Of a stretch of DNA of 64,000 nt, positions 1 to 49,580 are shown piece by piece. The stretch lies in the NCBI GenBank assembly GCA_030646295.1, contig JAUSND010000016.1, positions 310,001 through 374,000 on the forward strand, written 5' to 3'. Both the position numbers and the translations under genes were made by a program. How positions within the stretch are numbered: position 1 is the stretch's first letter; every line of letters starts with the position of its first letter. The notes under the pieces are model-generated. The model was given only the letters and a program-made list of their open reading frames with translations, was not told where the DNA came from and searched no databases. Source of the DNA: Moraxellaceae bacterium (lineage in GTDB: Bacteria > Pseudomonadota > Gammaproteobacteria > Pseudomonadales > Moraxellaceae).

Positions 1-1
1 A

Positions 2-340
2 ACCGGTCTTGGCACAACGGTTGCCAATCTGAATACCTACCAGATTCCCTACAATGTGCAAAACCTGCACAGTGCCGAAGTGAACTCAACGCTCTTTGGC
101 TTGTCCTTTCAGAAAGAGGCCGGGGTGCAGTATCCGGGCTATGCAATCGGTATGCAGAAGGGCTGGAGCATGTACCTTCCAAATGCATTCACCCTGACGG
201 TTTCGCAGCCGACCACACAGTTTGTGAGTAACATCATGTCGGGTGCTGCGGCTGCCGGTAATATCATCGGGTTGCCTACGGCAGTTGGTGGCGGCGGCAG
301 GGTGTATGACAATTGCTGGGGCACGGCGGTTTTTTGTTGA
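2..340 (+). CDS. C-terminal end of an unrecognised, probably secreted protein (5' truncated)
   Basis: The frame is open from the window edge to a TGA, giving about 112 residues of a longer protein whose start lies outside the window. The fragment is rich in Gly, Ala, Thr, Asn and Ser, has no evident membrane segment and ends in a short stretch with two cysteines (DNCWGTAVFC). I do not recognise a family. It lies about 50 bases upstream of a Fil-like secreted protein on the same strand, so a surface or secreted role in the same operon is possible. That role is inferred from position alone. Confidence 0.6.
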   Translation, partial: TGLGTTVANLNTYQIPYNVQNLHSAEVNSTLFGLSFQKEAGVQYPGYAIGMQKGWSMYLPNAFTLTVSQPTTQFVSNIMSGAAAAGNIIGLPTAVGGGGRVYDNCWGTAVFC

Positions 341-393
341 ATGTCGCCTTTACAGACTGAAAAGTGGAACGACCAGATTATCGAGCGTGGCGT

Positions 394-2508
394 ATGCATA
401 AAATAAAAATGAAAGCATTGGCGCTGGCAATCCTGTTGTCAGGTGGCATTGCACATCCGGTACTGGCACTGGATGACATCACCGATGGCGAGCTTGCCGA
501 TATTTCCGGTCAGGATGGCTTGTCACTCAGCTTCACCGATCCGCCAGCCGGGGTTCAGGCAAATACAATCCAGTGGCAAACCACGCCCACCAATGGTCTT
601 GAGCTTGGTTCAGCGGCCACGCCGGTGAATCTCAAACGCATAGATACCTCACGCCCCTTGATCAATGCCCATCTTGATGCCGGCTCCGATGGCACCACTC
701 CATGGGTGTCACTGAATACGGACTGGGCCAATTCACGTCTGGATATCGGCTCGATTGGCCTGACGGGCGTCAGCGGCAGCTTTGGCCGTTATGTGATTGA
801 TGCGGCAGGCACCTTCAGTGTGCGCAATGCGGGTGGCATTCTTAACGTCAACAGTGCTACCTGGGGTGCAGGCACAACAATCAACATTGGTGGGGTGAAT
901 CCCGCCTTGTGGACGCCAGGCACTCTGGGCGCCTCGACTCCTGGTCAGATCTACTGGCGGCAGGGAACGTCCGAGTTGAGTATGGGTGACTACACCTTTT
1001 TCTTTGACATGACGGATGGGCGTATTGGCGTTGACAACAATGGTTTGCTTGTCCAGAGCAAGCCAGGCTCTAAAATCAAATTCGCCTTGTCGCTCGATTT
1101 CACCTATGACGCCACCGGTACGTCTCCCTTTGCAATTACGGGAGCGGACAAATCAATGCTGTACTGGGGCTGGCGCGGGCACCAGACGGACTTTACTCTT
1201 CGGCTGAATGGCAAGGGTCGTGTAAAGGATGATAATACTGGCAACCTGAACGGCTTGGGCGCTTCTCTGGCGTTCAATTATGACCCCGATTTTGTCTGGA
1301 TCATTGGTGAGGGCGGTACCAATCCGTTCAAGATCGAGTTTGGTAACTGGACGCTGCTGCCGGGTAATACGCTGGCATATAACCTGCCATCCGTGACACT
1401 GGATCAGCTTGATGTCGGGCAAGGGGTTGCAGGTCTGTGCTGGGGTCAGAACACGATTAGTGCAACTGCCAACGGCACGTGTACAGGATCCGGAACAGGT
1501 TCTGCAGCTAGCAACTTTGCCGCACAACCAATCAAGGTTCGTGCAGCGGCAGATGCCAAGGCACTGGCCCTTGGTGTTCGCGACATGACTCTTTCGGCAT
1601 ACTCATCAACAGTCGACCTGATTGATCGTACGTCCAATGCCGCCAAGGCTCCACAGCGCTATAACTGGGCACTGATTTATACGTTCGCCAATCTGGATGC
1701 CGACATCATCGTGACGCCGGTCGCAAGCAGTGACCGCATGCGGCTTGATCTGGCGCTGACAACCCAGACTCTGGAGACCGGCGACACCAATCGCTGGCAG
1801 AAAGGCACCAACTTCATGATTGGTGATACTGATACAGGGGTGAATCAGGGCATAGGCTTGATAGGCGCTGATGTTCTGATGGCAGTCCGTAATGGCACGT
1901 TGGGCCAGACAGCGAGTGGCATCAAGTTTGATTCTCCCCAGGTGCGTTACCAGTTGCGCGGGATGATTGCTGGCGGTGCTATTCCCGCTATGCCTGTCAT
2001 GCAGAAAATGGCCTATATCGACATGAACCTTGAGGCTGACCGCTTTGTTCTGACGCTTGGTCCTGCGGCTACGGGAAAGGCTCTGACGTATTCTGGCTTT
2101 ATCAATATCATCAACAGCAATATTGCCGATTTCTCCAATCCGGTCCCCACCGCCGGAAATCATATACATGATGACGGCACATACTTGTCATTGTCTGAGC
2201 CAAACTTCTCCAAGCTTGGTGTTGATTTCCGTTTTGCGGACATTACTGGCTCGGTTGAAGTCACTGATGGCAAAGTGGATTTGCAGGGTGAAAGCGAAGG
2301 CCAGTTCCGGTTGCTGATTTCCAACAACATCAAGGTTGGTAGTACAGCCACTCACCCCTGCGCATTTGGGGTAGCCTCATGTGCTGCCGTGGTCGGTACA
2401 CCGTTGCAGGTAGGCAGGCTTGAGTTCGGTGGCAAGGATCTGGGTGCTCTTGTCATGCCAAGTGGCATTATTCGTGCCCAGGTGACAATGATGCCTCAGG
2501 TTCCGTAA
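394..2508 (+). CDS. Fil-like/DUF6160-type secreted protein
   Basis: A protein of about 704 residues. It has a signal peptide (basic MHKIKMK, a hydrophobic stretch, cleavage near HPVLA) and then LDDITDGELADISGQDGL. That N-terminal motif is typical of the DUF6160/FilA-like surface proteins of Acinetobacter and relatives. The remainder looks like a beta-rich repetitive exported protein, heavy in Thr, Ser, Asn, Gly and Asp, with no membrane helices. The frame extends upstream to a GTG at 364, but the ATG at 394 places the signal peptide at the N terminus; an ATG at 409 is also possible. Fil proteins have been annotated as pilus-assembly related, but the function is poorly established. The family call rests on the N-terminal motif only. 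Confidence 0.6.
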   Translation: MHKIKMKALALAILLSGGIAHPVLALDDITDGELADISGQDGLSLSFTDPPAGVQANTIQWQTTPTNGLELGSAATPVNLKRIDTSRPLINAHLDAGSDGTTPWVSLNTDWANSRLDIGSIGLTGVSGSFGRYVIDAAGTFSVRNAGGILNVNSATWGAGTTINIGGVNPALWTPGTLGASTPGQIYWRQGTSELSMGDYTFFFDMTDGRIGVDNNGLLVQSKPGSKIKFALSLDFTYDATGTSPFAITGADKSMLYWGWRGHQTDFTLRLNGKGRVKDDNTGNLNGLGASLAFNYDPDFVWIIGEGGTNPFKIEFGNWTLLPGNTLAYNLPSVTLDQLDVGQGVAGLCWGQNTISATANGTCTGSGTGSAASNFAAQPIKVRAAADAKALALGVRDMTLSAYSSTVDLIDRTSNAAKAPQRYNWALIYTFANLDADIIVTPVASSDRMRLDLALTTQTLETGDTNRWQKGTNFMIGDTDTGVNQGIGLIGADVLMAVRNGTLGQTASGIKFDSPQVRYQLRGMIAGGAIPAMPVMQKMAYIDMNLEADRFVLTLGPAATGKALTYSGFINIINSNIADFSNPVPTAGNHIHDDGTYLSLSEPNFSKLGVDFRFADITGSVEVTDGKVDLQGESEGQFRLLISNNIKVGSTATHPCAFGVASCAAVVGTPLQVGRLEFGGKDLGALVMPSGIIRAQVTMMPQVP

Positions 2509-2580
2509 TTCTCCGGAACCTGATGTTGGCTGCTGAAGTGATATTCCAGTTTTTGCCGGTAGTAGGGATATCGTGTTGCC

Positions 2581-4209
2581 ATGACAAGGCGTAAAAAAAA
2601 AATAGCGGCATCTGCTGCTATTGCTTCATCGCCAACAGCGACTGAATCATCTGCAGTTCTGACTTCCTCACACCATAGGGCAATCCTGCTTCTGGCAGCG
2701 GTTGCCCTTTTTATTTTCTACGCGGCGCTGAGCTATTTGTCGCGGGGAAATAATGCCTGGTGGTATATCGACTTTGTTGCCGAAGGTAATGTGCTCTGGG
2801 GTGATGATGCTTACCGCTATTTCATTGCGCGCTCAGCATGGATTAATCCGGATGTTTACTGGTTCAACTTCACCTTGCCCGTGGCTGTGGTTGCGGACGG
2901 AATTCTGACAACACTGGCTAACGGACACTTGCTATATGCCAGATGGCTAAAGTCGGCATTAACGGTTGTCTCGGTTTTTCTGGTGTATCAGGCCTGCATC
3001 AGGCTTCAGGTTTCAAGGCATGCAAGTGCGATAAGTGCGCTTCTTCTGGCTCTTATGCCCCTTTATTTTTTTGTGTCGATCAGTTTTTTCGGGGAGTCCT
3101 GGCTGGCTGTCCTTATAAGTGCGGCGCTATATCTTCATGTTGATCGCAAAGAAAATATTGCTGCAGTGCTGGTTTCACTCATGCCCTTGGTGCGCCCTGA
3201 AGGGATTTTTTTCGTGGCTGCATATTCTGTGTTTGCTGCTGCAAGAAGAAGTTGGGTGACAGCGGTATTGCCATTGGTGGCTGGTGGCATTTACTTTTTC
3301 ATGATCATTCTCATCGGGCCAGGACTCGAGGCCTATTCGGGCTGGCGCTTTGAGATGATGAAAATATATGAAGGCGCCCAGAACTGGTATGGCGGCCCTC
3401 TGGGCCGGCTCTCCAAGGTTTTCTTTTTGCCATGGCTGGCCTTGGCACTATTCGGGTTGTGCTTGCGCCATGCCAGCATCATGAGACCGTTCCTGCTGGC
3501 GGGATTGGCCGTAATTGCCATGATTGTTGGCTCTGTCGTGCTAAAGACAGCAAATTTTGAGCCGCGCTATCTTGCGCCGATAATGCCTATCCTGGCGGTT
3601 GGCTTTGCTCTGGCGATGGATCGTATACGAGTGTATCTATTGTCCCGTCGCCAGGAAAAACTGGCGATTGGATTTGTCATTGTAATGTCGGTATCGACGT
3701 TGGTGGCTCAGTTCTTCTCGGTATATGTCTTTGATCATATTCGTCAGTATTATGTTGATAATGGTGAATTGCCGAGAGAAGTGGTTGCGCAGCCATTAAG
3801 TATGGGGACGTACTTCAAGGGGCTATCAGGGGCTGAGATTGACAGTTATCGTGAGTTTGCCGGTGTTGTGACGGAAATGATGCGTGTCAATCCGGGTATA
3901 AAGACGCTGGTTGTCAGTAATTTCCTTGTATTCTATTTTCTTGATCCGGAAAAGATGCCGTCAGATGTCCGGGTTGTATTTGCAATATTCGGCAGGGGGC
4001 GGCTTGACTCCATCGTGGGGCAAGATAAAACGGCTGGTTATTTTGCCAGTGAGCCATTTTATGGTGAGTTTGCATTGAGTCCTCCAGGTAGTGAAAAGAA
4101 CCTTTTGCTGTACCTCGATCGTATTCCGGCGGGGGATTATCCCTATCACTGGCGCGTTGGCGATAATGATATTTTCTTGTTTAACGGGAAGCTGCTGCAG
4201 TCGCACTGA
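2581..4209 (+). CDS. GT-C family membrane glycosyltransferase (ArnT/PMT-like)
   Basis: A 542-residue protein with a basic N terminus, about ten hydrophobic segments between residues 35 and 380, and a soluble C-terminal domain. An acidic pair in WGDDAYRYF (around residue 78), in the first periplasmic loop, matches the catalytic loop of GT-C enzymes, which move sugars from polyprenyl-phosphate donors to lipids, proteins or glycans on the periplasmic face. It is the first gene of a rightward run with a hydroxylase-type protein, a GT2 transferase and a WecD-like acetyltransferase. The GT2 protein is a plausible maker of its polyprenyl-linked donor. The acceptor cannot be read from the sequence. 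The gene looks AT-richer than ppsA and aceA. Confidence 0.65.
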   Translation: MTRRKKKIAASAAIASSPTATESSAVLTSSHHRAILLLAAVALFIFYAALSYLSRGNNAWWYIDFVAEGNVLWGDDAYRYFIARSAWINPDVYWFNFTLPVAVVADGILTTLANGHLLYARWLKSALTVVSVFLVYQACIRLQVSRHASAISALLLALMPLYFFVSISFFGESWLAVLISAALYLHVDRKENIAAVLVSLMPLVRPEGIFFVAAYSVFAAARRSWVTAVLPLVAGGIYFFMIILIGPGLEAYSGWRFEMMKIYEGAQNWYGGPLGRLSKVFFLPWLALALFGLCLRHASIMRPFLLAGLAVIAMIVGSVVLKTANFEPRYLAPIMPILAVGFALAMDRIRVYLLSRRQEKLAIGFVIVMSVSTLVAQFFSVYVFDHIRQYYVDNGELPREVVAQPLSMGTYFKGLSGAEIDSYREFAGVVTEMMRVNPGIKTLVVSNFLVFYFLDPEKMPSDVRVVFAIFGRGRLDSIVGQDKTAGYFASEPFYGEFALSPPGSEKNLLLYLDRIPAGDYPYHWRVGDNDIFLFNGKLLQSH

Positions 4210-4224
4210 GCGACCGGGGTTGTA

Positions 4225-4821
4225 ATGAATAATCAGATGCCGACCAACTATAAAGAAGTGGCCGGGTTCATGCTAAGTCACTCAGGTCCAAAGGTTGCCT
4301 TGCTGGCTTTGGTTCTTTGTCTGATTTACAGGGGAGTGCACGGTTGGCACTGGATTGATGTTGTTATCGTATCTTCCATGTTTTTCTTGCGCGGGTTCCT
4401 TGAGTGGACGTTCCACAAATATGTCTGGCATTCTCATCCTTTGCCACTTGTGCACTGGAAAATAAAAGGCCCAATCGCAATAATGCATGCCAATCACCAT
4501 AAAAACCCCTATGCAAGCGAGGGACTTATTTTTGGTGGACCAGGTGTTCTCGCTGTCTGTGCCCTGATTACCGGAGGCGGGTTTCTGGTTTTGCAGTCTT
4601 TCTCATTGGGTGTCAGCTTTCTGACTGGTTTTCTGCTCGTTTTGATGGTTCATGAGTGGCATCATGTTCTTGCGCACTCGAATATTGATCCCATATCGCC
4701 ATTGTTCAGGCGGGCCGTGATGTGTCACCGGCTTCATCATCATGAGGATGCTCGTGCTTATATGGGTGTGAGTTCGGTGCTGGCTGACAAGGTTATGGGA
4801 ACGAATGGGAGCGGACAGTGA
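4225..4821 (+). CDS. Fatty acid hydroxylase/sterol desaturase superfamily membrane protein
   Basis: A 198-residue protein with four to five hydrophobic segments and the histidine clusters of the di-iron membrane hydroxylase superfamily: HKYVWHSH, HANHHK, HEWHH and HRLHHHE. These clusters bind two irons that activate oxygen for hydroxylation or desaturation of lipid chains or carotenoids. The start is an ATG 16 bases after the GT-C stop, so the two are probably co-transcribed. Its place between two glycosyltransferases suggests that it modifies the lipid part of the carrier or acceptor, but this is inference. The substrate is unknown, and carotenoid hydroxylase relatives share the same motifs. 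Confidence 0.75.
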   Translation: MNNQMPTNYKEVAGFMLSHSGPKVALLALVLCLIYRGVHGWHWIDVVIVSSMFFLRGFLEWTFHKYVWHSHPLPLVHWKIKGPIAIMHANHHKNPYASEGLIFGGPGVLAVCALITGGGFLVLQSFSLGVSFLTGFLLVLMVHEWHHVLAHSNIDPISPLFRRAVMCHRLHHHEDARAYMGVSSVLADKVMGTNGSGQ

Positions 4822-4864
4822 CACGCTTTTCCGGTTGTCAGCGTAGTGGGCGAAAATACTTTCT

Positions 4865-5566
4865 GTGATCACGATTATTACGACAGCAAGCCCTTCCTGG
4901 GATGAAACAAGGCGATTTGTGCTTGCTGTTGCAGCCTATCAGGCATCCCGTAATTGTACTATTGAGCTGATTGTTGTTGATGATTTGAGGGTCTTGTCGG
5001 GTGTTGAGAAAGTTGGTCAATTGGCGCCGTATGTTTTTGTCAAGCTTTTTGTTCCGGAGGTAAAAGGCCAGCTTGATTCAGGTATTCGTGCATTGGCTCA
5101 TGCAAATGGCGAGCTTATTGTAACGATTGATCCGGACATGCATGAGAACCTGGCTGATATTGACCGGTTTGTTGAAAAGCAGGCTTCAGGGTGCTCCCTT
5201 GTCTATGGCGTAAGGGTTGCTCGTGGCGATGTCTCTTGGCTCAGGGTCTTGATCTCAAGGCTTTATAATCGGGTTGTCCGGAAGATTTTCTTGATCCCTG
5301 TTCATGACATCAATACGCCGATGCTGCTTTTGTCTGCAGACATAGTGCCTGAGATATTGGGCTATGATGGACGTTGTGGTCTCGTGAAGGTTTATTTTCC
5401 ATATGTATTGGGGGCCCGCTTTGCCGAGGTAAAGATTGAGGTCTCTGGCATGTCAAAAACATCATCCTATTCATACCTGAGGCTTGCAGGCTTCATGTTC
5501 AGGCAGCTTGCCGGACTGTCGGTCTTTCTGAGATTCAGGTTGGGATCGCATCGTCATGTCGCATGA
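4865..5566 (+). CDS. Family 2 glycosyltransferase (polyprenyl-phosphate sugar synthase-like)
   Basis: A 233-residue GT-A fold glycosyltransferase beginning at a GTG (MITIITTASPSWDE). Visible features are the nucleotide-binding acidic pair IVVDD near residue 40 and the DxD-like metal site TIDPDMHENL near residue 90, followed by YGVR. This layout resembles dolichol-phosphate mannose synthase and ArnC. There are no clear C-terminal membrane helices, unlike ArnC, although the last 40 residues are fairly hydrophobic. The 3' end overlaps the next gene by 11 bases, implying translational coupling to the acetyltransferase. The likely role is to load a nucleotide sugar onto a polyprenyl carrier for the GT-C enzyme upstream. 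The sugar is not known. Confidence 0.7.
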   Translation: MITIITTASPSWDETRRFVLAVAAYQASRNCTIELIVVDDLRVLSGVEKVGQLAPYVFVKLFVPEVKGQLDSGIRALAHANGELIVTIDPDMHENLADIDRFVEKQASGCSLVYGVRVARGDVSWLRVLISRLYNRVVRKIFLIPVHDINTPMLLLSADIVPEILGYDGRCGLVKVYFPYVLGARFAEVKIEVSGMSKTSSYSYLRLAGFMFRQLAGLSVFLRFRLGSHRHVA

Positions 5567-6518
5567 TATTTATCAGGTTTGCTCCGCGTTCGCAGGGGTT
5601 TCGTGTTCCGGATTGGAGTTTTATTCAAGATTCAGGTATCACCCAGGCTTTTCATCAGGCGATGTATCAAGGATCTCTTCAATTGATTTTTCGTTGCTGT
5701 TCAATGATGAAAACATCGGGTTTTTTGCCATGTCTTCAGGTGAGGCTGTGGCACTTTGCGTGGCTGTCAAAAGTGTTTGGGAGTCCGCTTATTTTGATGT
5801 CTCTATGGCGCGTCTTTATTGTTTTTCTTCTATCAATGTTGATGCTGATCTGATTTCTCTCCTTGTAAATAAAACGGTTAGCCATGCGTTTGAGCGATCC
5901 GGGATTTGTCATTTCTCGATTGATGTTGATATTGATAATTACAAGGTTCTCAATTGTTTGTCCGGGAACGGATTTGAGATTCTTGATCTCAAGCGGACGT
6001 ATTTTACAAACAAGCTGGGTACGAATCCGGAGTTTTCGAGGTCTGTTGCCAGGGTCAGGGATTATACGGATGCAGACGCTGATGTTGTTCGAGAGATAAT
6101 TACAGCTGCAAAGTTCGAGACTCGCTTTACCCGTGACAGATTTCTGAAAAAGGATGCCTCTGATTCGCTGTATCAACAGTGGTTTTTGAATCTTGTGAAA
6201 GACTCGGGGTCGGGCTCCCATGTTGTAGTTTTTGAACGGATGGGGCGTGTTGTCGGATGTGGTGGTATCGGGGAAATGAGCTTTTCCCGTTACGGGATTG
6301 ACAGGAAAATGCGCACTGGAAGTCTTTATGCCTGCTCTTCTGAGGGGGTGGGGGGCTATGCTCCGGTGCTGTATCGGCTAACCAGTGATGCGATTGCCAG
6401 TCATGGCCTGGTTGAGACTACGGTTTCGTTGAATAATGCGTCGGCCGTCAGGGTGGTTGAGGGGGTTCGCCCAAATCGCTCTACCACCTCATATGCAATG
6501 CGGCGATTCATTCAATAG
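5556..6518 (+). CDS. WecD-like GNAT N-acetyltransferase
   Basis: A 320-residue protein. The part from about residue 165 follows WecD (dTDP-4-amino-4,6-dideoxygalactose N-acetyltransferase) closely. It starts RDYTDADADVVREI, continues through TRFTRDRF and LYQQWF, and ends NNASAVRVVEGVRPNRSTTSYAMRRF-like as in WecD. The first 160 residues form an extra region with a WecD-like feature (a GFEIL strand) and may be a degenerate second GNAT fold. The family N-acylates a 4-amino-6-deoxy sugar. The gene faces the WecE-type aminotransferase with only 33 bases between stops, which strengthens the amino-sugar assignment. The acyl group transferred and the exact sugar remain open. Confidence 0.65.
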   Translation: MSHDIYQVCSAFAGVSCSGLEFYSRFRYHPGFSSGDVSRISSIDFSLLFNDENIGFFAMSSGEAVALCVAVKSVWESAYFDVSMARLYCFSSINVDADLISLLVNKTVSHAFERSGICHFSIDVDIDNYKVLNCLSGNGFEILDLKRTYFTNKLGTNPEFSRSVARVRDYTDADADVVREIITAAKFETRFTRDRFLKKDASDSLYQQWFLNLVKDSGSGSHVVVFERMGRVVGCGGIGEMSFSRYGIDRKMRTGSLYACSSEGVGGYAPVLYRLTSDAIASHGLVETTVSLNNASAVRVVEGVRPNRSTTSYAMRRFIQ

Positions 6519-6551
6519 CTTCTTGTGTGGACTGTGTGGAGGTAGTCCGTG

Positions 6552-7679
6552 TTATTGGCGGTTTCCTATGATTGCGGTCATGGTCTGGATGCAATTTTCT
6601 GGAAGGCCAGGCCATAGTGGAAGCCTTAATACTCTTCCGGGGAGGGCAGTGCTGTTAGGGAGAGATGGCTCTCTTGAATAAAGCAGGCCTTCCGGAGAGA
6701 GATGCAAAGGCTCGTAATGACTTGTGCACTCTATGCCTGCACTTTTCCCGGCTTTTACGATGTCGTCTCTTTTCTCGCGTGATGAAAACAGTACGTAATA
6801 AATATGACTGTTATGCTGTGCTGTCGGTGGAATGAAGGGCGTTGAGATATCCCCATTTGTACGCAGGCCTTTTAGCGCTGCATCATAGGCATTCCAGTGC
6901 ACGGCCCTTTTGGCTGTAATTTCCCTTGCATCCTCCAGTTGTGCGCACAAATACGCGGCCGCCAGTTCGCCAACTGACGATGAAGTGCCAATTCCGCTCC
7001 ATGTGTACTTTTCAACCTTGCCGGCCAGGAAGTCTTTGCGGTTGGTTCCTTTTTCCCTGAGTATTTCGGCCGTCTCAAGAAATTCGCTGTGATTTACCAG
7101 AAGGGCACCACCTTCGCCACAATGGATGTTTTTTGTGGCATGAAACGAGAATGTGCCAAGATGTCCTATGGTTCCGGCAGATTTTCCCTTGTATGTCGAA
7201 AGAAATGCCTGTGCGGCATCTTCGATTACAAACAGGTCGTGTTTTTTTGCGATTGCCATGATTGTGTTCATTTCACAGGGTATGCCTGCGTAGTGGACGG
7301 CAATAATCGCTTTTGTCCTTGGGGTAATTGCGGCCTCTATCAATGTCTCGTCAATGTTGAGCGTGTCATGACGGATGTCGACAAAAACGGGCCGGGCGCC
7401 ACGCAAAAGAAAGGCATTGGCTGTGGACGGGAAGGTAAAGGAGGGCATGATGATCTCGTCATCAGGTCCTGTGCCGACAAGGATTGCAGCCATTTCCAGT
7501 GCGGCGGTGCATGAGTTTGTCAGCAGTACATTTGATGCACCGGTATGCTGCCGGATCAGGGCTTCGCTGCGTTCGGTAAAGCGGCCGCCAGCGGCTGTTT
7601 TACCGCTTTCAATCACTTCGCGGATGTATGCCAGTTCCCTGCCTGTGACATAGGGATTATTGAAGGGAATATTGGTCAT
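6552..7679 (-). CDS. wecE: dTDP-4-amino-4,6-dideoxygalactose transaminase (WecE/RffA type)
   Basis: A 375-residue DegT/DnrJ/EryC1 PLP aminotransferase, close in length to E. coli WecE. Landmarks are PFNNPYVTGRELAYI at the N terminus, LLTNSCTAALEMAA, the EDAAQ motif, the PLP lysine in FSFHATKN, GEGGALLVN and REKGTNR. Known WecE makes dTDP-Fuc4N from dTDP-4-keto-6-deoxyglucose using glutamate. The ATG start at 7679 removes a non-homologous extension of the open frame. It lies 58 bases downstream of ppsR on the same strand, so read-through from ppsR is possible, while its functional partners appear to be the genes on the other strand that converge on it. The family call is strong; the product is assigned by similarity. 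Confidence 0.88.
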   Translation of the reverse strand: MTNIPFNNPYVTGRELAYIREVIESGKTAAGGRFTERSEALIRQHTGASNVLLTNSCTAALEMAAILVGTGPDDEIIMPSFTFPSTANAFLLRGARPVFVDIRHDTLNIDETLIEAAITPRTKAIIAVHYAGIPCEMNTIMAIAKKHDLFVIEDAAQAFLSTYKGKSAGTIGHLGTFSFHATKNIHCGEGGALLVNHSEFLETAEILREKGTNRKDFLAGKVEKYTWSGIGTSSSVGELAAAYLCAQLEDAREITAKRAVHWNAYDAALKGLRTNGDISTPFIPPTAQHNSHIYYVLFSSREKRDDIVKAGKSAGIECTSHYEPLHLSPEGLLYSREPSLPNSTALPGRVLRLPLWPGLPENCIQTMTAIIGNRQ

Positions 7680-7737
7680 TTTCCGTATGCCAGTGCAGGG
7701 AGGCTTATTGTTGTTTTGCTTTGTCTGTTCTGGCGGT

Positions 7738-8556
7738 TCAAACCAGGCGACGCTTGATTCCTGCCTGGGCCAGAATCCTTGTCGAGATTTCCTCGATCGA
7801 TAAATGCGTCGTGTTGATATAGGGAATGCCTTCCTTGTTGAACAGCGCTTCTGCAGCACGGATCTCGATCTCGCACTGCTGGATTGATGCGTAACGACTG
7901 TTGGCTTTGCGCTCGTTGCGTATGGCACACAGTCGCTCGGGGTCAATGGTCAGGCCAAACAGCTTGCGTTTGTGCTCCTTGAGCGCGCCGGGAAGTCGCA
8001 GGTCATCAAAGTCATCTTCTGTCAGCGGGTAATTTCCCACGTGTACGCCAAACTGAAGTGCCATGTACAGCGAGGTCGGGGTTTTTCCCGAGCGTGAGAC
8101 GCCTGTCAGGATGATGTCGGCCTTGTCATAGTGACGTGTACGGGCACCATCATCGTTGTCCAGGGCAAAGTGCACGGCATCAATTCGAACCCCGTAGGCC
8201 TCATTGTTGATGATGGAGTGGGTTTTGCCGACCACGGTGGTGGGGGCGGCACACAGCTCGGTTTCCAGTTTGCCCAGATAGGTCTCGAATACGTCCATCA
8301 TGAAGGCATTGGCGGTGGCGATGATGTCGCGGACCTGGCGATTGACGATGGTGTCAATGATGATGGGACGGACGCCATCATCTTCTGCCACCTTGTTGAT
8401 CTGCTGAACCAGGCTTCTGGCCTTGTCTTCGGTGTCCACATAGGGGATGGCCGACTCATCAAACTGGACCGTGTCAAACTGGGCCAGCAGGCTGCGGCCC
8501 AGTGTTTCGGCCGTGATGCCGGTACCGTCGGAGACAAAAAAAACGCTGCGTTTCAT
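7738..8556 (-). CDS. ppsR: PEP synthase regulatory protein PpsR (bifunctional kinase/pyrophosphorylase)
   Basis: A 272-residue DUF299 protein. It has the N-terminal motif [19 protein letters not shown] and a P-loop-like GVSRSGKT near residue 150. PpsR phosphorylates a threonine near the catalytic histidine of PEP synthase using ADP and removes it by phosphorolysis, switching gluconeogenic flux. It is divergent from ppsA across a 323-base gap, a common arrangement. The ATG at 8556 begins directly with the conserved N terminus. Nothing is unusual in the sequence. Transcription runs on toward wecE with no clear terminator between the two. Confidence 0.95.
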
Positions 8557-8879
8557 GTGGGCTTCCTGTCGTTACTGACCCGCCAGCGGGGCGGGTGGAC
8601 AAACGGGGAACAATCCGGGCAGGCTCTACGGCCAAAGTCTTGGTTCAGAAGACAAATTCTGCCATTTTACGGCAAGCATTTTACGCCGGAGTTGAGTACA
8701 ATTCTGGGCCTCGGACCGGGGTCGAACGGCAGTAAACAGGGCCTGAGGCTGCCCCCGAGTGTATGTCCAAACGCCTGGCGTGAATAGCGGTCTATATCAA
8801 AAACTGCTTTCTTATCAGGCGCTTGTGGTCGTCAACCACGGCCTTCACACAGATTCAGATACCGCTAGGGAGTCCTGCC
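8557..8879. promoter_or_regulatory. ppsR-ppsA divergent intergenic region
   Basis: A gene-free spacer of 323 bases. It contains a tandem direct repeat CATTTTACG at 8663-8671 and 8677-8685 (14-base period), followed by a -10-like TACAAT at 8697-8702 on the + strand. The spacing fits regulator binding just upstream of a ppsA promoter. A Shine-Dalgarno AGGGAG at 8867-8872 lies 7 bases before the TTG start of ppsA. No coding frame here looks real. The promoter call is a pattern match only. Confidence 0.35.
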
Positions 8880-11252
8880 TTGGAATCGTCAGTCATTTGG
8901 TTTGAAAAACTTGGCAAGCATGATGTCGAGACTGTGGGCGGCAAGAACGCCTCTCTCGGTGAAATGATCAGTAATCTTGCCAATGCCGGTGTTTCGGTAC
9001 CCGGTGGTTTTGCTACAACCGCACAGGCCTATCGCGATTTTCTGGAGCAGTCCGGCCTTAACAAGCGTATCCATGACACGCTGGCTACCCTGAACGTAGA
9101 CGACGTGATTGCGCTGGCTGCTGCCGGCAAGCAGATCCGCCAGTGGATCATTGATACCCCGCTGCTGCCATCCTTTGAAAAGGAAGTGCGCGAAGCCTTT
9201 GCCAAGATGGCCGATGGCAATGAAAACATGGCTGTGGCTGTACGTTCTTCCGCCACTGCCGAAGACTTGCCGGATGCATCGTTTGCCGGCCAGCAGGAAA
9301 CCTTCCTGAACATTCGTGGCATCGACAATGTGCTGATCGCCATTCGCGAAGTGTTTGCTTCCCTCTTTAATGACCGTGCCATTGCCTACCGTGAACACCA
9401 GGGCTTCGAGCACAAGCTGGTAGCGCTGTCCGCCGGTATCCAGCGCATGGTGCGCTCCGAGACTGGCGCATCGGGTGTGATGTTCACGCTGGATACCGAA
9501 TCCGGCTTCCGTGATGCCGTGTTCATTACGTCTTCTTACGGTCTGGGTGAAATGGTGGTGCAGGGCGCCGTCAACCCGGATGAGTTCTATGTACACAAGG
9601 TGACGCTGGAAGCTGGTCGTCCGGCCATTCTGCGTCGCAATCTGGGTTCCAAGGCCCAGAAAATGATTTATGGCAGCGCGTTCAGTGCTGGCAAGTCGAC
9701 TGTCATTGTGGATGTGGACAAGGCCGAGCGTGCGCGCTTCTCCATCACCGATGCAGAGATTACCGAGCTGTCCAAACAAGCCCTCATCATTGAAAAGCAT
9801 TACGGTTCGCCGATGGATATCGAGTGGGCGAAGGACGGTGATGACGGCAAGATCTACATTGTTCAGGCTCGCCCTGAAACCGTGAAGAGCCGCCAGAATG
9901 TCGGCACCATGGAGCGTTATCTGCTCAAGCAGAAGGGCAAGGTGATCTGCGAAGGTCGGTCCATCGGCCAGCGTATCGGTTCGGGTGTGGTGCGGGTAGT
10001 GCACTCCATCAAGGAAATGGACAAGGTGCAGCCGGGTGACGTGCTTGTCTCCGACATGACCGATCCGGATTGGGAACCGGTGATGAAGCGTGCCAGCGCC
10101 ATTGTGACCAATCGTGGTGGCCGTACCTGTCATGCTGCCATCATCGCTCGTGAGCTGGGTGTGCCGGCCATTGTTGGTTGCGGCAATGCCACCGAAGTGC
10201 TGAAGGATGGCATGGAAGTGACAGTGTCCTGTGCCGAGGGCGACACCGGTTTCATCTACGAAAACCTGCTGGACTTCGAAATCCAGAAGAACTCTATCGA
10301 CTCGATGCCGAAGCTGCCGTTCAAGATCATGATGAACGTGGGTAACCCGGATCGTGCGTTTGACTTTGCCCAGTTGCCGAATGAAGGCATTGGTCTGGCC
10401 CGCCTGGAGTTCATCATCAATCGCATGATTGGTGTGCACCCGAAGGCGCTGCTGAACTACGACAACCTGCCGCGCGACATCAAGCAGTCCGTGGATCTGC
10501 GTTGCTCGGGCTACGCTACTCCGGTCGATTTCTATGTGGAAAAGCTGGTGGAAGGCATTGCCACTCTGGCCGCTGCTTTCTATCCGAAGAAGGTCATCGT
10601 GCGCATGTCGGACTTCAAGTCCAACGAGTACGCCAACCTGATCGGTGGCAAGCTGTACGAGCCGGAAGAAGAGAACCCGATGCTGGGCTTCCGTGGTGCC
10701 AGCCGCTACATCTCCGACAACTTCCGTGACTGCTTTGATCTGGAAGTGCGTGCGCTGAAGAAGGTACGCAACGAGATGGGTCTGACCAACGTCGAAGTGA
10801 TGATTCCCTTCGTGCGTACGACGGGTGAAGCCAAGCGTGTGCTGGAACTGCTGGCCGAGAAGGGTCTGAAGCGTGGCGACAATGGCCTGCGTGTCATCAT
10901 GATGTGCGAACTGCCAACCAATGCGCTGCTGGCTGAAGACTTCCTGGAACACTTCGATGGCTTCTCCATCGGCTCCAACGACCTGACACAGCTGACGCTG
11001 GGCCTGGATCGTGACTCCGGTATCGTCTCGCACCTGTTTGACGAGCGTGATCCGGCGGTGAAGTTCCTGCTCTCGCGTGCCATCCAGGCATGCAAGAAAG
11101 CGGGCAAGTACATTGGCATCTGCGGTCAGGGCCCTTCGGATCATCCGGATCTGGCCAAGTGGCTGATGGAAGAGGGTATCGACACGGTGTCGCTTAACCC
11201 TGATTCCGTGCTGGATACCTGGTTCTTCCTTGCGGAAAACCACGGCAAGTAA
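8880..11252 (+). CDS. ppsA: Phosphoenolpyruvate synthase
   Basis: A 790-residue enzyme, near the usual 792. It converts pyruvate, ATP and water to PEP, AMP and phosphate for gluconeogenesis. The N-terminal ATP-grasp domain starts [23 protein letters not shown]. The swivelling phosphohistidine domain carries [15 protein letters not shown] with the catalytic His at 418 and the regulatory Thr two residues before it. The C-terminal PEP-binding barrel includes [15 protein letters not shown] and the acid/base Cys in GICGQGPSD. The start is probably the TTG at 8880, because AGGGAG lies 7 bases upstream and the conserved N terminus begins there; an in-frame codon at 8823 would add 19 non-conserved residues. 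A strong terminator follows. The neighbouring PpsR is its regulator. Confidence 0.95.
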
Positions 11253-11268
11253 TCTGTTTTGTGTTAAT

Positions 11269-11296
11269 AAAAAAGGCGGCTAATCCCGCCTTTTTT
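11269..11296 (+). terminator. Rho-independent terminator of ppsA
   Basis: A stem GGCGG/CCGCC (11275-11279 with 11286-11290) extended by six A-T pairs, ending in a run of six T, 17 bases after the ppsA stop. Confidence 0.85.
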
Positions 11297-11334
11297 ATTG
11301 CCTGAAAACGGGTAAACGGTATCTCTGGAGGATC

Positions 11335-11655
11335 ATGAGCATGGCCTTTCATGCCCTGGAAAAGCTTGTGCATTTGCACGACGGCTATCGTCAGGTATTC
11401 CGGCTTGCGGGTATCCAGCTTTTGCTCATCCAGGAGAGCGGCCACCGTTACCTGATGAGAAACATGTGCCCTCACAAGGGCTTTCCCTTGCATACCGGGA
11501 CGATGTCAGGGACGAGGTTGCGTTGTGCATACCATGCGATGGAGTTTGACCTGGCGAGGGATGGCCGCTGTATCCAGCATCCGGCGCAGCCGGGCGTGAC
11601 AATGTATGAACTTGTTTACGATGGTAATGCGGTGGGTGTGGAGTTGCCCGACTGA
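11335..11655 (+). CDS. Small Rieske [2Fe-2S] protein
   Basis: A 106-residue single-domain Rieske protein. The cluster ligands are visible as NMCPHKGFPL and, 16 residues on, RCAYHAMEFD, that is C-x-H and C-x2-H. Such small Rieske ferredoxins carry electrons to oxygenases or form a subunit of nitrite reductase-like enzymes. The start ATG is preceded by GGAGGA at 11326-11331. It stands alone after the ppsA terminator and converges on the lytic transglycosylase gene 8 bases away. No oxygenase or reductase subunit is adjacent; the nearest oxygenases are the two P450 genes from 12.9 kb. Its partner therefore cannot be named. Confidence 0.85.
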   Translation: MSMAFHALEKLVHLHDGYRQVFRLAGIQLLLIQESGHRYLMRNMCPHKGFPLHTGTMSGTRLRCAYHAMEFDLARDGRCIQHPAQPGVTMYELVYDGNAVGVELPD

Positions 11656-11662
11656 CGGTTGA

Positions 11663-12361
11663 TCAGCGCCGTGCAGGAGTGGCCGAGGCGATTGCAGTGC
11701 CGCCATAAAGGTTGCGGTAACGGCTCATGACGCGCTTCACATAATCCTGGGTTTCTGCAAAGGGCGGAATGCCGCCATATTTCTTCACGTTGCCTTCGCC
11801 GGCATTGTAGGCGGCCAGCGCCAGCTCCAGATTGTTGTTGTAACGGGTGATCAGGTACTTGATGTGGCGGGTGCCGGCCCGGATGTTTTCTCCAGGATCA
11901 TAGGCATCCATGACGTCATACATGGCGGCGGTGGCCGGCATCAGTTGCATCAGGCCTTGGGCGCCGGGCTTTGAGCGGGCGCGCGGGTTGAAGCCGGACT
12001 CGGTATGAATGATGGCTTTGACAAGGCCGTGGTCAACATTCAATGCCAGGGCGGATTGTCTGATGATGTCGTCAAAGGCATTACGGTTCTTGCTGAAGCT
12101 GGGGCGGACGGCAAATTCGTTGTCGCCCCAGTTGCCGTACTTGTGGACATTGGTGTCCTTGTACCAGGTGACTTTCTGGAGCTTGCTGTACTGTTTGAAT
12201 CCCTCACCAGATGGCTTCTTGCGCGAGTTGACTACGTTGGTGAAGAGCACATTGCCGTCGGCGTCGGTGAACTTGTAGACGTTGCCTGCCGTCACGGACG
12301 CGGGAAGCATCGTGAGCAGAAGCAGGCTTGCAAGTGCAAATGAGCGCGTCATGAAGGCCAT
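11663..12361 (-). CDS. Lytic transglycosylase with DUF4124 and SLT domains
   Basis: About 232 residues: a signal peptide (MAFMTRSFALASLLLL, cleavage near SVTAG), a DUF4124-type segment (VYKFTDADGNVLFTN), then a soluble lytic transglycosylase domain. Domain motifs are the catalytic-Glu segment IHTESGFNPRARS, GAQGLMQLMP, AAYNAGEGNV and YVKRV. It would cleave the MurNAc-GlcNAc bond of peptidoglycan in the periplasm to form 1,6-anhydro ends. The ATG at 12361 was chosen because it gives a proper signal peptide; 12352 is nearly as good and neither has a clear Shine-Dalgarno sequence. Upstream lies an AT-rich spacer with an inverted repeat. Confidence 0.88.
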   Translation of the reverse strand: MAFMTRSFALASLLLLTMLPASVTAGNVYKFTDADGNVLFTNVVNSRKKPSGEGFKQYSKLQKVTWYKDTNVHKYGNWGDNEFAVRPSFSKNRNAFDDIIRQSALALNVDHGLVKAIIHTESGFNPRARSKPGAQGLMQLMPATAAMYDVMDAYDPGENIRAGTRHIKYLITRYNNNLELALAAYNAGEGNVKKYGGIPPFAETQDYVKRVMSRYRNLYGGTAIASATPARR

Positions 12362-44566: not shown

Positions 44567-47500
44567 ATGACCTGGTTCAATGATCTTTCCATTCGCGTCA
44601 AGGTGCTGAGCATTTCCCTTCTCAGCCTCTTCGGGTTCCTTCTCTATCTCGGCATCAATTACTACGCTACCCGCGATGTGGCGGGTCATCTCCAGCAACT
44701 ACAGAACAGCGATGTACCAGCGCTGCAGCTGATCAATGCCCAGACTGCCCAGGTAGGGGTGGTCCGGGACAGCTATGCGCGTGCCATGTCCGGCCGTGAC
44801 ACGGCCATGCTGGCCAACGCCGAGAGTGCAGCGACCGCCTTGCAGGCCCAGTTGTCACAGTCATTGTCGGGTGATACCCGTGCCGAACAGTTGCGTTTGC
44901 TGGATAGTTTCCGTGAATACAATCGTTATGCCAACACACTGGCACGGGATGTCATCGCGGGCAGGCTTTCGGTCGATGAATCAAACCAGCGCATGCAGGT
45001 ACTGGGGCAGCTGCAAAGGGACTTTGATTCACAGCAGGAGTCGTTCAAGGCGGATGTATATGAAGGCTTTTCCAAGAAGATAGGTAACGTCAGGCAGAGG
45101 AATGATGATGTCTGGATGCTGGGGCTGATTCTTGGAACGGTTCTGGCTGTTGTGGTGCTGGCACTGACATGGTTGATCACCAATCGCATGATCATCAGGC
45201 CGCTGACGCATGCCGTCGAGGCATCCAATAAAATTGCCGAGGGCGACTGGTCCATATCCATCGTGACGGCTGCCCGTGATGAACTGGGCAACATGCTGCA
45301 CTCCATCCAGAAGATGCGTGATCGCCTGAAGTCGCGCTTTGATGAGGATCGACGTGCCGAGCGCATCAAGACAACGGTTGCCGAGCTGGCCAACCAGATG
45401 CGTGGAGAGCTTTCGCTGGATCAGCTGGCTGAAAATATCCTGAATTACCTGGTGCCGGCGCTGCGTGGGCAGGTTGGTCTTTTCTATCTTCCAGACGGAA
45501 AAGAGCTGGTGCTGAAAGGAACGTATGCCTTTACATGGCGCAAGAACCTGTCTAACCGGATTCCCATGGGCGAGGGACTGGTCGGGCAAGCTGCAATGGA
45601 AAAGAAGCAGATTGTACTGACGAGGGTGCCTGAAGATTACATCGTGGTCAGCTCCGGTCTTGGTGAGACGACGCCGCGCCACATCGTGGTGACGCCCATC
45701 CTGCATGAAGGCGAGCTGTGCGGCATGCTGGAGGTTGGTGCACTGGATTCTCTCGGCCCGGAAGAGCTTGAAATACTCAAGCTCAGTGTCGAGCATATTG
45801 CGATTGCAGTGAACTCGGCGCTGTCGCGCATGAAGCTTTCCGAGATGCTGCAGCAGACACAGAAACAGGCTGATTTGTTGAAGCGCCAGCAGGATGACAT
45901 GCAGGCGATCAACGATGACCTTGAGGAGCAGGCCCAGGCGCTGCTGACCTCTGAAATGAAGTTGCAGGAGCAGCAGGATGAGCTGCGCAAGGCCAATGAA
46001 GGCCTTGAGGAGCAGGCCCAGGCCTTGCGTGCATCCGAAGAAAGCCTGCAGGCGCAGCAGGAAGAGTTGCGTGTCATCAATGAAGAGCTGGAGGCCCAGG
46101 CAAAGCTGCTGGCGGACCAGCGTAACGAGCTTCTGGAGAAAAACGAGGCGCTGCATGCATCGCAGCAGGTACTGGAGGACAAGACAAAAGCACTTGAGAT
46201 GTCGAGCAAGTACAAGTCCGAGTTTCTGTCCACCATGTCCCATGAGTTGCGTACACCGCTCAACTCCATTCTCATTCTTTCCAACTCGCTGGCAGACAAC
46301 AAGCATGGGAATCTGACTGAAAAGCAGATTGAGCATGCGCGTGTCATTCATTCTGCAGGTTCTGACCTGTTGACCCTGATTAACGACATTCTGGACATTG
46401 CCAAGGTTGAAGAAGGCAAGATGCAGTTGATGATCGAGCCACTTGACGTGACCGATCTGGCCGAGCATCTGCGCCGCAACTTTGAGCATGTAGCCCAGCA
46501 TCGTGGATTGCAGTTCCTTGTAAACGTTGCGGAAGGAACGCCGCCGACGCTGTTCACGGACCGGCAGCGTCTTGAGCAGGTGTTGCGCAACTTCTTCTCC
46601 AATGCCTTCAAGTTCACGCATCAGGGTAGCGTCAGCCTCAACATCGGGCCCGCGCCGGAAGGGATCAAATTCAAGCGTATCCAGGCTTCCCAGGGGCCTG
46701 TCATTGCACTGGCCGTGAAAGATACCGGCATTGGTGTGCCGCAAGATAAACAGGATCTTATCTTTGAAGCCTTCCAGCAGGCCGATGGCACGACCAGCAG
46801 GAAATACGGCGGTACCGGTCTTGGATTGACCATTTCCCGCGAGTTTTCACAACTGCTGGGCGGAGAGGTTCATATCTTCAGTGAAGGGGAGGGCACTGGC
46901 GCCACCTTCACTCTTTATCTGCCGGCAGGATCGCCTGTGGCAGCGCAGGACGAAGCGGCGGACCGGCAGCCGGCCGAGATGGTGCGGATGGCGGCATCAA
47001 CCTTTGCAGCACTGTCCGAGACACCTTCCCGCACCGGTGGACAGAAGACGTTGCTGATCATCGAGGATGATGAAAACTTTGCCGATGTACTCGGGGAGCT
47101 TGCCAGCGAGTTCGGTTTTCGCTCAGTGACGGCACATGATGGTGAAAGCGGCATAGACATGGCCAGGGAATCCAGGCCGGATGCCATCATTCTGGACATC
47201 GGCTTGCCTGGCATTGATGGCTGGGCCGTACTTGAGCAGTTGAAAAATGACTCTGTAACACGTGATATTCCTGTCCATTGTTTTTCCGGACATGACGAGT
47301 CCGCCAAGGCCTTGCGCATGGGTGCCATTGCCTACTACAAGAAACCGGCCACGCTGGACCAGATAAAGGAGGCTTTCGGAACGATCGAAAGCCAGACCGA
47401 GCATGGCATCAGGCGCCTTCTGGTGGTTGAGGATAACTCGGTCCAGCACAGTGCAATCAATGCCCTGTTCGAGGACTCGCATGTCGATGTAACAGTATGT

Positions 47501-48214
47501 ACCACGGGGCAGGAGGCTCTTGATGCCTTGCGGCGCGAGTCATTCGACTGCATCGTTCTGGATCTTTCATTGCCGGACATGGACGGGTTTTCTTTGCTGG
47601 AAACCATCCATGAAAATGACGCCTATCCGAATGTGCCCGTGATTATTTACACGGCAAGGGATCTGGCACGCGAAGAAGAGGCAAAACTGCGCAAGTATGC
47701 TGACCGCATTATCCTGAAGACAGACCAGTCAGCGGACAGACTGCTCTCGGAGGCATCACTTTTCCTGCACTGGATTGAAAGCAAGGAGCCTGCAAAATCC
47801 CGCCAGGCCGATGCGAGTTCTCATCGTGATGATGTGTTTGCCGGTTGCAAGGTTTTGCTGGTGGATGATGACATGCGTAACATTTATGCCCTGTCGGCGA
47901 CACTGGAGGAGTGGGGCTGTGAAGTCCAGATGGCCAACAATGGGCTGGAAAGCCTTGAGGCGCTGGATGCCAACCCGGCAATCAATATTGTCCTGATGGA
48001 TATAATGATGCCGGAAATGGATGGTTATGAGGCTATGCAGCGTATTCGTGCCCAGGAGCGGTTCAAGAAGCTTCCCATTCTGGCATTGACTGCCAAAGCC
48101 ATGCGCGATGACAGGGCGAAATGCATTGATGCGGGCGCCAACGATTACATCACCAAGCCGGTTGATACAGAGAAGTTGCAGTCACTTATGCGTGTCTGGT
48201 TGCAGAGGCCATGA
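44567..48214 (+). CDS. Hybrid sensor histidine kinase: 4HB-HAMP-GAF-coiled coil-HK-three receivers
   Basis: A 1215-residue membrane kinase. Domains in order: membrane helix (about 10-30), periplasmic four-helix sensor, second membrane helix (about 182-205), HAMP (207-260), GAF (271-425), a long coiled coil (425-550) made of 28-residue repeats, HisKA with His559 in TMSHELRTPLN, an HATPase ending near 785 with DTGIGVP and GGTGLGL, then three receivers from about 826, 948 and 1094 with phospho-Asp at 877, 999 and 1145. AGAGGGGAG precedes the ATG. The stop overlaps the CheR start by four bases. It is probably the input of the module that runs to 51.3 kb. Confidence 0.92.
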   Translation: MTWFNDLSIRVKVLSISLLSLFGFLLYLGINYYATRDVAGHLQQLQNSDVPALQLINAQTAQVGVVRDSYARAMSGRDTAMLANAESAATALQAQLSQSLSGDTRAEQLRLLDSFREYNRYANTLARDVIAGRLSVDESNQRMQVLGQLQRDFDSQQESFKADVYEGFSKKIGNVRQRNDDVWMLGLILGTVLAVVVLALTWLITNRMIIRPLTHAVEASNKIAEGDWSISIVTAARDELGNMLHSIQKMRDRLKSRFDEDRRAERIKTTVAELANQMRGELSLDQLAENILNYLVPALRGQVGLFYLPDGKELVLKGTYAFTWRKNLSNRIPMGEGLVGQAAMEKKQIVLTRVPEDYIVVSSGLGETTPRHIVVTPILHEGELCGMLEVGALDSLGPEELEILKLSVEHIAIAVNSALSRMKLSEMLQQTQKQADLLKRQQDDMQAINDDLEEQAQALLTSEMKLQEQQDELRKANEGLEEQAQALRASEESLQAQQEELRVINEELEAQAKLLADQRNELLEKNEALHASQQVLEDKTKALEMSSKYKSEFLSTMSHELRTPLNSILILSNSLADNKHGNLTEKQIEHARVIHSAGSDLLTLINDILDIAKVEEGKMQLMIEPLDVTDLAEHLRRNFEHVAQHRGLQFLVNVAEGTPPTLFTDRQRLEQVLRNFFSNAFKFTHQGSVSLNIGPAPEGIKFKRIQASQGPVIALAVKDTGIGVPQDKQDLIFEAFQQADGTTSRKYGGTGLGLTISREFSQLLGGEVHIFSEGEGTGATFTLYLPAGSPVAAQDEAADRQPAEMVRMAASTFAALSETPSRTGGQKTLLIIEDDENFADVLGELASEFGFRSVTAHDGESGIDMARESRPDAIILDIGLPGIDGWAVLEQLKNDSVTRDIPVHCFSGHDESAKALRMGAIAYYKKPATLDQIKEAFGTIESQTEHGIRRLLVVEDNSVQHSAINALFEDSHVDVTVCTTGQEALDALRRESFDCIVLDLSLPDMDGFSLLETIHENDAYPNVPVIIYTARDLAREEEAKLRKYADRIILKTDQSADRLLSEASLFLHWIESKEPAKSRQADASSHRDDVFAGCKVLLVDDDMRNIYALSATLEEWGCEVQMANNGLESLEALDANPAINIVLMDIMMPEMDGYEAMQRIRAQERFKKLPILALTAKAMRDDRAKCIDAGANDYITKPVDTEKLQSLMRVWLQRP

Positions 48215-49050: not shown

Positions 49051-49089
49051 GGAATATTCAGGGATAAGGATGCCCGGCGAGGTGTAAAA

Positions 49090-49575: not shown

Positions 49576-49580
49576 CCTGT

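Follow-up and report, generated by a model that had tools for sequence, protein, structure and literature searches.

Which molecule does a small cluster of sugar-handling genes serve in a Moraxellaceae bacterium? The cluster lies at positions 2581 to 7679 of a 64,000-nucleotide (nt) stretch of contig JAUSND010000016.1 (assembly GCA_030646295.1, contig positions 310,001 to 374,000; hereafter, the window), and its first gene encodes a glycosyltransferase of the GT-C superfamily. The original prediction likened the cluster to the Arn system and proposed the transfer of single sugars, perhaps to lipid A, a protein or another lipid. We modestly favour a more specific answer, namely that the genes form a dedicated glycosylation cassette for the products of a neighbouring operon of four DUF6160-type genes, here called A to D. 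Because relatives nearly always keep both gene sets together, the sugar is probably placed on A-D proteins and not on lipids, and lipid A is probably not the target.

Linkage of the GT-C gene to the A-D operon

Homologues of the GT-C protein, gathered by protein or profile search, were found in 7 of 97 relatives, 4 of 390 genomes of the order and 10 of 46 genomes of a family presumed to be the Alcanivoracaceae (f43). In all, they occupy 18 loci in 17 genomes, a tandem pair in G002 being counted as one locus and G828 contributing two. Among 369 class and 398 phylum genomes, samples that include some genomes of the same order and in which up to three candidates were scored per genome, the bacterium's own genome was the sole match. 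Gene D lies within 6,282 nt of the GT-C gene in 17 of the 18 loci (median of those 17, 1,538 nt), and an A-D gene is its direct same-strand neighbour in 12 (the window, L010, L011, L013, L019, L020, L108, L109, L110, L111, L112 and L113), with a 101-amino-acid (aa) unlabelled open reading frame (ORF) between the two in L013. All 17 GT-C genomes contain D. Likewise, the four GT-C genomes of the order are all among the 13 of 390 with a strong D match (E<1e-100, by profile A4 of D with up to two candidates scored per genome; Fisher p 7.5e-7), and the ten of f43 are all among the 29 of 46 with D (E<1e-50; Fisher p 0.005), Fisher values that overstate the association because the searched genomes are related and not independent draws. 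The strong matches in the order place the A-D operon in several Pseudomonadales genera. One locus, L019:43-9168 (G401), carries a tandem pair of A-B-C sets; D accompanies one of them, and another D lies beyond the cassette.

The A-D operon also occurs by itself. Fourteen of the strong D loci of the order lack the GT-C gene (10 genomes, counting G275, which has GT-C at another of its loci), and local hidden Markov model (HMM) searches labelled no GT2, GNAT, WecE, FA_hydroxylase, KASIII or epimerase gene at any of them; the basic job of A-D would therefore be independent of the cassette. At 8 of the 14, ppsR flanks the operon as it does in the window, and in six of these eight no other ORF of more than 90 aa lies between A-D and ppsR. 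Two genomes of a single genus differ here: in G192 the cassette separates ppsR from D, and in G434 the two genes are adjacent. In the other two of the eight ppsR-flanked loci, the space between A-D and ppsR is taken up by one ORF of about 1,135 aa whose start resembles that of a lipoprotein (L062:12634-16050 and L067:4680-8078), a space that elsewhere holds the cassette or is empty.

In a maximum-likelihood phylogeny of 27 D proteins, drawn from loci other than L110-L114, the GT-C label changes seven times, with at least six of these changes forced by well-supported branches; shuffled labels gave a mean of 9.3 changes, and out of 500 shuffles 36 (plus) or 55 (minus) gave a number as low. This scatter fits a cassette that comes and goes. 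On the GT-C tree, rows of families f1 and f43 intermingle, with some forks open. Co-inheritance from a single origin, taken as the whole explanation of the linkage, is weakened by both trees. The GC content at third codon positions (GC3) is 0.46-0.51 in the cassette genes, 0.57-0.61 in A-D, 0.69 in ppsR and ppsA, and 0.57-0.72 across nine non-cassette genes, and the lower values mark the cassette as foreign. Between the window and its close relative G004, the ratio of nonsynonymous to synonymous substitution rates (dN/dS) is 0.10-0.27 for the cassette, 0.03-0.10 for A-D and 0.01 for ppsR/ppsA; of three other genes, two lie near 0.04, and a short Rieske-like gene outside the cassette reaches 0.14. 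No ratio exceeds 1, which points at most to weaker constraint and not to positive selection. Taken together, these features suggest an exchangeable cassette that stays with A-D and whose hydroxylase, desaturase or acyl-synthesis partner varies.

Genes of the cassette and its partners

The left end of the window holds the following features.

2..340, + strand: 3' end of gene C, the third member of the DUF6160-type tandem of four (tail matches the C model at E 7e-51)
364..2508, + strand: gene D, 714 aa, DUF6160-like; predominantly beta-strand, N-terminus resembling a signal peptide; proposed to be the acceptor or to form part of it
2581..4209, + strand: GT-C glycosyltransferase, 542 aa; proposed periplasmic transfer enzyme (predicted fold, invariant residues)
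4225..4821, + strand: membrane hydroxylase of the FA_hydroxylase family, 198 aa (PF04116, 37.5 bits, above the cut-off of 31; histidine clusters at residues 64, 88, 143 and 168)
4865..5566, + strand: GT2 transferase, 233 aa, ArnC/DPM-like; proposed polyprenyl-phosphate sugar synthase (PF00535, NF007986, 9hwj)
5556..6518, + strand: GNAT/WecD-like protein, 320 aa, tentative; proposed 4-amino-sugar N-acylation (all models below cut-off)
6552..7679, - strand: WecE-type dTDP-4-keto-6-deoxyglucose aminotransferase, 375 aa (TIGR02379, 4piw_A)
7738..8556, - strand: ppsR, conserved flank marking the insertion side of the cassette, outside the cassette

The full copy of gene C is at L009:17042-18340, genes A and B are situated to the left of the window, and the order A-B-C-D is also displayed by L115. 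These upstream genes are co-directional (A, 437 aa; B, 227; C, 432; D, 714; gaps of -4, 48 and 23 nt), and on the plus strand D is followed by the GT-C gene after 72 nt, the hydroxylase gene after a further 15, the GT2 gene after 43 and the GNAT-like gene with an overlap of 11. Eight genes run in one direction (A-B-C-D-GTC-FAH-GT2-GNAT; gaps of -11 to 72 nt), with the cluster as their right half; judging from its spacing, the run looks like a single transcription unit. The original prediction had the orientation right, with the GT-C, GT2 and GNAT-like genes on the plus strand and the aminotransferase gene facing them, and its GT-C, GT2 and aminotransferase assignments stand; its acyltransferase is a tentative call, and it missed both the hydroxylase gene at 4225-4821 and the A-D genes directly upstream, with a range that halves the operon.

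The AlphaFold model of the GT-C protein (predicted local distance difference test, pLDDT, 85; predicted template-modelling score, pTM, 0.86) resembles Pmt1-Pmt2 (Z 22.1; root-mean-square deviation, rmsd, 3.8; 347 residues aligned), ALG9 (Z 20.3, rmsd 6.2, 400 aligned), ArnT (Z 19.9, rmsd 4.5, 411 aligned) and OST/PglB (Z ~19), and Foldseek puts ALG9, ALG12 and ArnT at its top ranks. The likeness to ArnT is not specific, Pmt, ALG and OST scoring alike. Members of the GT-C superfamily characteristically carry a conserved acidic residue in, or ahead of, their first outer loop. The predicted membrane fold, together with D75, invariant in 19 homologues, makes the protein a member of it; also invariant, among others, are Y78, R79, E172, R205, W255, R256, E327 and R329. 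Such a fold would imply a lipid-linked sugar as the donor and does not tell the acceptor. A sequence search of the PDB gave no useful match, and the Pfam/NCBIfam matches are weak (DUF2079, 20.1 bits against a cut-off of 28.2; AZOBR_p60025_fam, 20.7 against 150).

The aminotransferase passes the WecE models (TIGR02379, 475.3 bits, cut-off 434.85; NF008687, 500.9, cut-off 375), matches PDB entry 4piw_A at E 1.4e-112 and scores lower with the ArnB model NF008658 (194.8 bits, under its cut-off of 631); its motif FHATKN contains K183, which we take to be the candidate pyridoxal-phosphate lysine. The GT2 protein passes PF00535 (26.4 bits, cut-off 23.3), has a DPD motif at residue 89 and finds its nearest solved structure in ArnC (9hwj, E 2.4e-8), although it is shorter than ArnC and, at 39.6 bits, falls far below the cut-off of 529 of the ArnC model NF007986. 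Analogy supports the original proposal that the enzymes share out the work as in Arn, with an aminotransferase of the WecE type; ArnB and ArnC scores far below their cut-offs speak against membership in the Arn system itself. The GNAT-like protein passes no model (PF00583, 16 bits, E 0.015, gathering 20.7; WecD models NF008212, 16.9 bits, cut-off 219, and TIGR02382, 13.5, cut-off 195.1), and its acyltransferase role is therefore tentative; a PDB sequence search with it returned nothing useful (2fs5, WecD, at E 0.3).

Partner genes were counted over the 18 loci by local HMM, and these counts are minima because the sequence at L109 and L111 is cut off by a contig edge or masked stretch. GT2 is present in 16, being absent from L114 and L107 and weak (E about 1e-17) in L012 and L108. 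The 320-aa GNAT-like protein has a homologue beside GT-C in 12 loci; L012 and L020 have instead a protein of 215-217 aa, taken as a GNAT relative, that has no Pfam match. WecE is found in 12 (in L012 by the coordinates of a separate search), and a single WecE gene and a single GT2 gene serve both loci of G828. Ten of the 17 GT-C genomes were examined for WecE as a whole: nine have it at E<=1e-60, seven of them over the model cut-off, and a GT-C gene occurring mostly without WecE was not seen. A stricter threshold (E<=1e-100) detects WecE in 6 of 7 GT-C genomes versus 5 of 90 others (Fisher p 3e-6). It lies away from GT-C in G010 and G401 and was not found in G006; in two of the genomes without GT-C, it sits among genes read as rml and glycosyltransferase genes (G009) or on a small contig with no recognised partner (G005). 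The constant member of the GT-C neighbourhoods is the A-D operon.

A hydroxylase or desaturase, drawn from one of several families, accompanies GT-C in 10 of the 18 loci: FA_hydroxylase in the window, L010, L019, L108 and L110; Asp_Arg_Hydrox in L012 and, as a fusion with FA_hydroxylase, in L108/L025; PhyH in L014 and L015; and FA_desaturase in L019, L021 and L114. None was labelled in L011, L013 or L113. Genes for 3-oxoacyl-acyl carrier protein (ACP) synthases occur in L020 and L012; beside GT-C, L020/L094 has two KASIII genes, an 83-aa ORF, a short-chain dehydrogenase/reductase (SDR), the 215-aa protein and WecE. The fusion gene just mentioned, L025:9708-11150 (= L108:7884-9329), is a single ORF beside GT-C that joins two unrelated oxygenase families.

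As originally stated, no flippase, polymerase or ligase is found among the five cluster genes. The genome's one GtrA-type match is remote (G000:C8:505666, 30.3 bits, cut-off 26.1; the window is C8:310001-374000), and GtrA matches occur in 6 of 20 genomes, other flippase kinds not having been searched genome-wide. Some cassettes encode a membrane protein of the LPG_synthase_TM family (L019:13442-14458, PF03706; a homologue at L110:12094-13149; weaker in L093), which might be the missing flippase. A UbiA-type prenyltransferase lies inside a G828 cassette (L110:10167-11057) and is perhaps tied to a lipid carrier.

To the left of A-D are genes that we take, from their translations, to be metH, aroG, cysB and cysH. 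An O-antigen locus on that side was rejected on reading the 19 kilobases (kb) that end at window base 1000; the A-D operon is there instead. Scans of terminator-like sites were uninformative (11 against 11.2 expected), those of promoter-like sites (14 against 8.9 expected) were left unused, and Rfam gave no matches at its gathering threshold in window positions 1-12000. Elsewhere, positions 44567-51322 hold, by translation, a hybrid sensor kinase gene followed by CheR-, CheB- and response-regulator-like genes, and the GC content of positions 48001-51000 is low (0.47-0.49).

The A-D proteins as candidate acceptors

The A-D proteins are probably secreted. Against PF19657 (DUF6160, gathering 27), protein B scores above the threshold (30.5 bits), C and D score below it (21.7 and 16.6), and A has no match. 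Their N-termini, judged by eye, are signal-peptide-like and continue into a short DUF6160-kind motif. The FilA model NF050077 gives at best 24.7 bits with these proteins and 34.7 with one from a relative, under its cut-off of 220. The AlphaFold2 model of D (pLDDT 77.9, pTM 0.79) is mostly beta strand, and a fold search with it found no confident structural match (best Foldseek E 0.036); the weak best matches are mostly barrels, including outer-membrane barrels, as well as lipid-transfer-type proteins, and the fold is left unnamed because no Z exceeds 8.1. The literature surveyed offered nothing on the operon beyond a single paper that mentions DUF6160.

The likeliest chemistry, by analogy, would be Arn-like with a WecE-type sugar. 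The Rml pathway would supply dTDP-4-keto-6-deoxyglucose; rmlB lies on another contig (G000:C13:281351), in what we take to be an rmlB-D-C-A group. The WecE-type enzyme would aminate this intermediate, and the GNAT-like protein would N-acylate it to a dTDP 4-acylamino-4,6-dideoxyhexose. GT2 would then load the sugar onto polyprenyl phosphate on the cytoplasmic side, a flippase coded outside the cluster would turn the product over, and the periplasmic GT-C enzyme would place single sugars on one or more A-D proteins. The substrate of the membrane hydroxylase is probably the acyl group or some other hydrophobic portion of the product, and the oxygenase, desaturase or acyl-synthesis partner of each locus may tailor the acyl group. 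The gene content, the modelled GT-C fold, the linkage and the scattered occurrence of the cassette beside A-D are observations; this order of enzymes, like the sugar, the acyl step, the acceptor and the hydroxylase substrate, is deduced from the enzyme families, the acceptor and the tailoring being the least certain.

Several observations weigh against a cassette dedicated to A-D, quite apart from the relatedness of the genomes compared. Export of A-D to the surface is presumed from signal peptides judged by eye, and their role as acceptors from gene context; D proteins with and without GT-C beside them do not evidently differ in Ser/Thr or Asn content; and the Z scores, with Pmt, ALG and OST as high as ArnT, do not separate protein-modifying from lipid-modifying GT-C enzymes. 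The ppsR flank is present at 10 of the 18 GT-C loci (the outer flanks of L019, L108, L109 and L110/L111 lie beyond the stretch examined), and part of the linkage is therefore inherited position. In G822, the GT-C gene stands alone (L107:3340-4902) beside genes of the DUF484, dapF and lysA types; no sugar gene was labelled in its vicinity, and D genes lie elsewhere in the genome. In L014, D and the sugar genes are set apart by three unrelated ORFs, read as tig, clpP and clpX. These last observations, with the foreign GC3 of the cassette, would suit a mere hotspot, in which the space between A-D and ppsR gathers sugar genes that have no function on A-D and whose product is destined for O-antigen, capsule or some other target. 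We consider this unlikely, since L015 keeps the GT-C/D pair near a gene read as metG, away from ppsR, D is present in every GT-C genome, and ppsR flanks 8 of the 14 GT-C-less D loci, where six are empty above 90 aa and two hold one large ORF. L014, beside genes read as clpX and lon, keeps the link loosely in yet another context.

The partner enzymes raise the matter of lipids, for the Asp/Asn-hydroxylase partner (presumably LpxO-type) and the fatty-acid-hydroxylase partners could act on lipid. An Arn-like modification, in which lipid A or another membrane lipid receives the amino sugar from GT-C and has its acyl chains altered by the hydroxylases, would draw on the same kinds of enzymes as Arn and on a GT-C fold near ArnT, and acyl-chain-type oxygenases or desaturases, one of them a fusion, do accompany GT-C in 10 of the 18 loci. 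It nevertheless appears distinctly unlikely: the constant neighbour is the A-D operon, no gene for lipid A or the lipopolysaccharide core was recognised when the 18 loci were read (a reading and not a family-by-family search), scores against the ArnB and ArnC models fall far short of their cut-offs, and three loci are without a labelled hydroxylase or desaturase. The A-D proteins might also be the export or assembly machinery of a cassette-made glycolipid or glycan and not its acceptor, as the beta-rich model of D and its resemblance to outer-membrane barrels and lipid-transfer-type proteins would allow; those resemblances are not significant, A-D stands without labelled sugar genes at 14 control loci, and we hold such a role to be very unlikely.

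Comparison with known systems

The cassette was not described in the titles and abstract openings surveyed, a literature in which subscription journals are partly covered. Tentatively, and with rather less confidence than in the dedicated cassette itself, we propose a new, exchangeable form of protein glycosylation in Moraxellaceae and Alcanivoracaceae, dedicated to a four-protein DUF6160-type surface structure, its sugar diversified by swaps of unrelated hydroxylase, desaturase and acyl-synthesis genes, possibly under pressure from phages or predators. If so, the coming and going of the cassette would mark the A-D products as exposed, selected surface structures, and would offer a handle on a narrow GT-C subfamily and on the bacterial diversification of acylated amino sugars by unrelated oxygenases.

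Among published systems, the closest parallels to the proposed mechanism are TfpW/TfpO, the viosamine island and the three-component systems. The tfpW and tfpO genes adjoin pilA. According to the available portion of PMC11841053, TfpW and TfpO of Pseudomonas aeruginosa are accessory glycosyltransferases that modify their associated pilins, differ between strain groups and both evade pilus-specific phage binding; TfpW is a GT-C family enzyme by the title of a paper cited there. Coding the transferase with its acceptor is a trait that the cassette may share, with D, a putative acceptor, within 6.3 kb in 17 of 18 loci. The two are likened without sequence comparison, and the acceptor there is a type IV pilin and the sugars are D-Araf or O-antigen units. 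In the part of PMC4751259 consulted, the Acinetobacter fil operon (FilA-FilF) encodes several outer-membrane-type proteins, and it resembles A-D as a multi-protein operon, the DUF6160-type N-termini being weak matches to the FilA model, below its cut-off.

Like the Arn system, the window has a GT2 enzyme, proposed to make a polyprenyl-phosphate donor, and a GT-C enzyme, whose modelled fold resembles ArnT about as much as Pmt, ALG and OST; it differs in its WecE-type, not ArnB-type, aminotransferase, in having no ArnA among the cluster genes and in its linkage to A-D. Three-component systems (GtrA/GtrB/Gtr, GT136), as outlined in the accessible text of PMC11127046, likewise pair a polyprenyl-phosphate sugar synthase with a GT-C enzyme, and act on O-antigens and mycobacterial cell-wall arabinan; unlike them, the window has no flippase gene with its glycosyltransferase pair among the five cluster genes. 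Finally, the viosamine island of P. syringae, as presented in the sections of PMC3927599 at hand, is a variable island at a fixed site that serves a flagellin glycan with a 4-amino-sugar aminotransferase and an acyltransferase. Its seven tabulated genes include no GT-C or polyprenyl carrier enzyme, its acceptor is flagellin, and the window differs from it in having a hydroxylase and no acyl-synthesis genes. L020 resembles the island also in having 3-oxoacyl-ACP synthases, a small ORF that possibly codes for an ACP, and an SDR of the reductase type.

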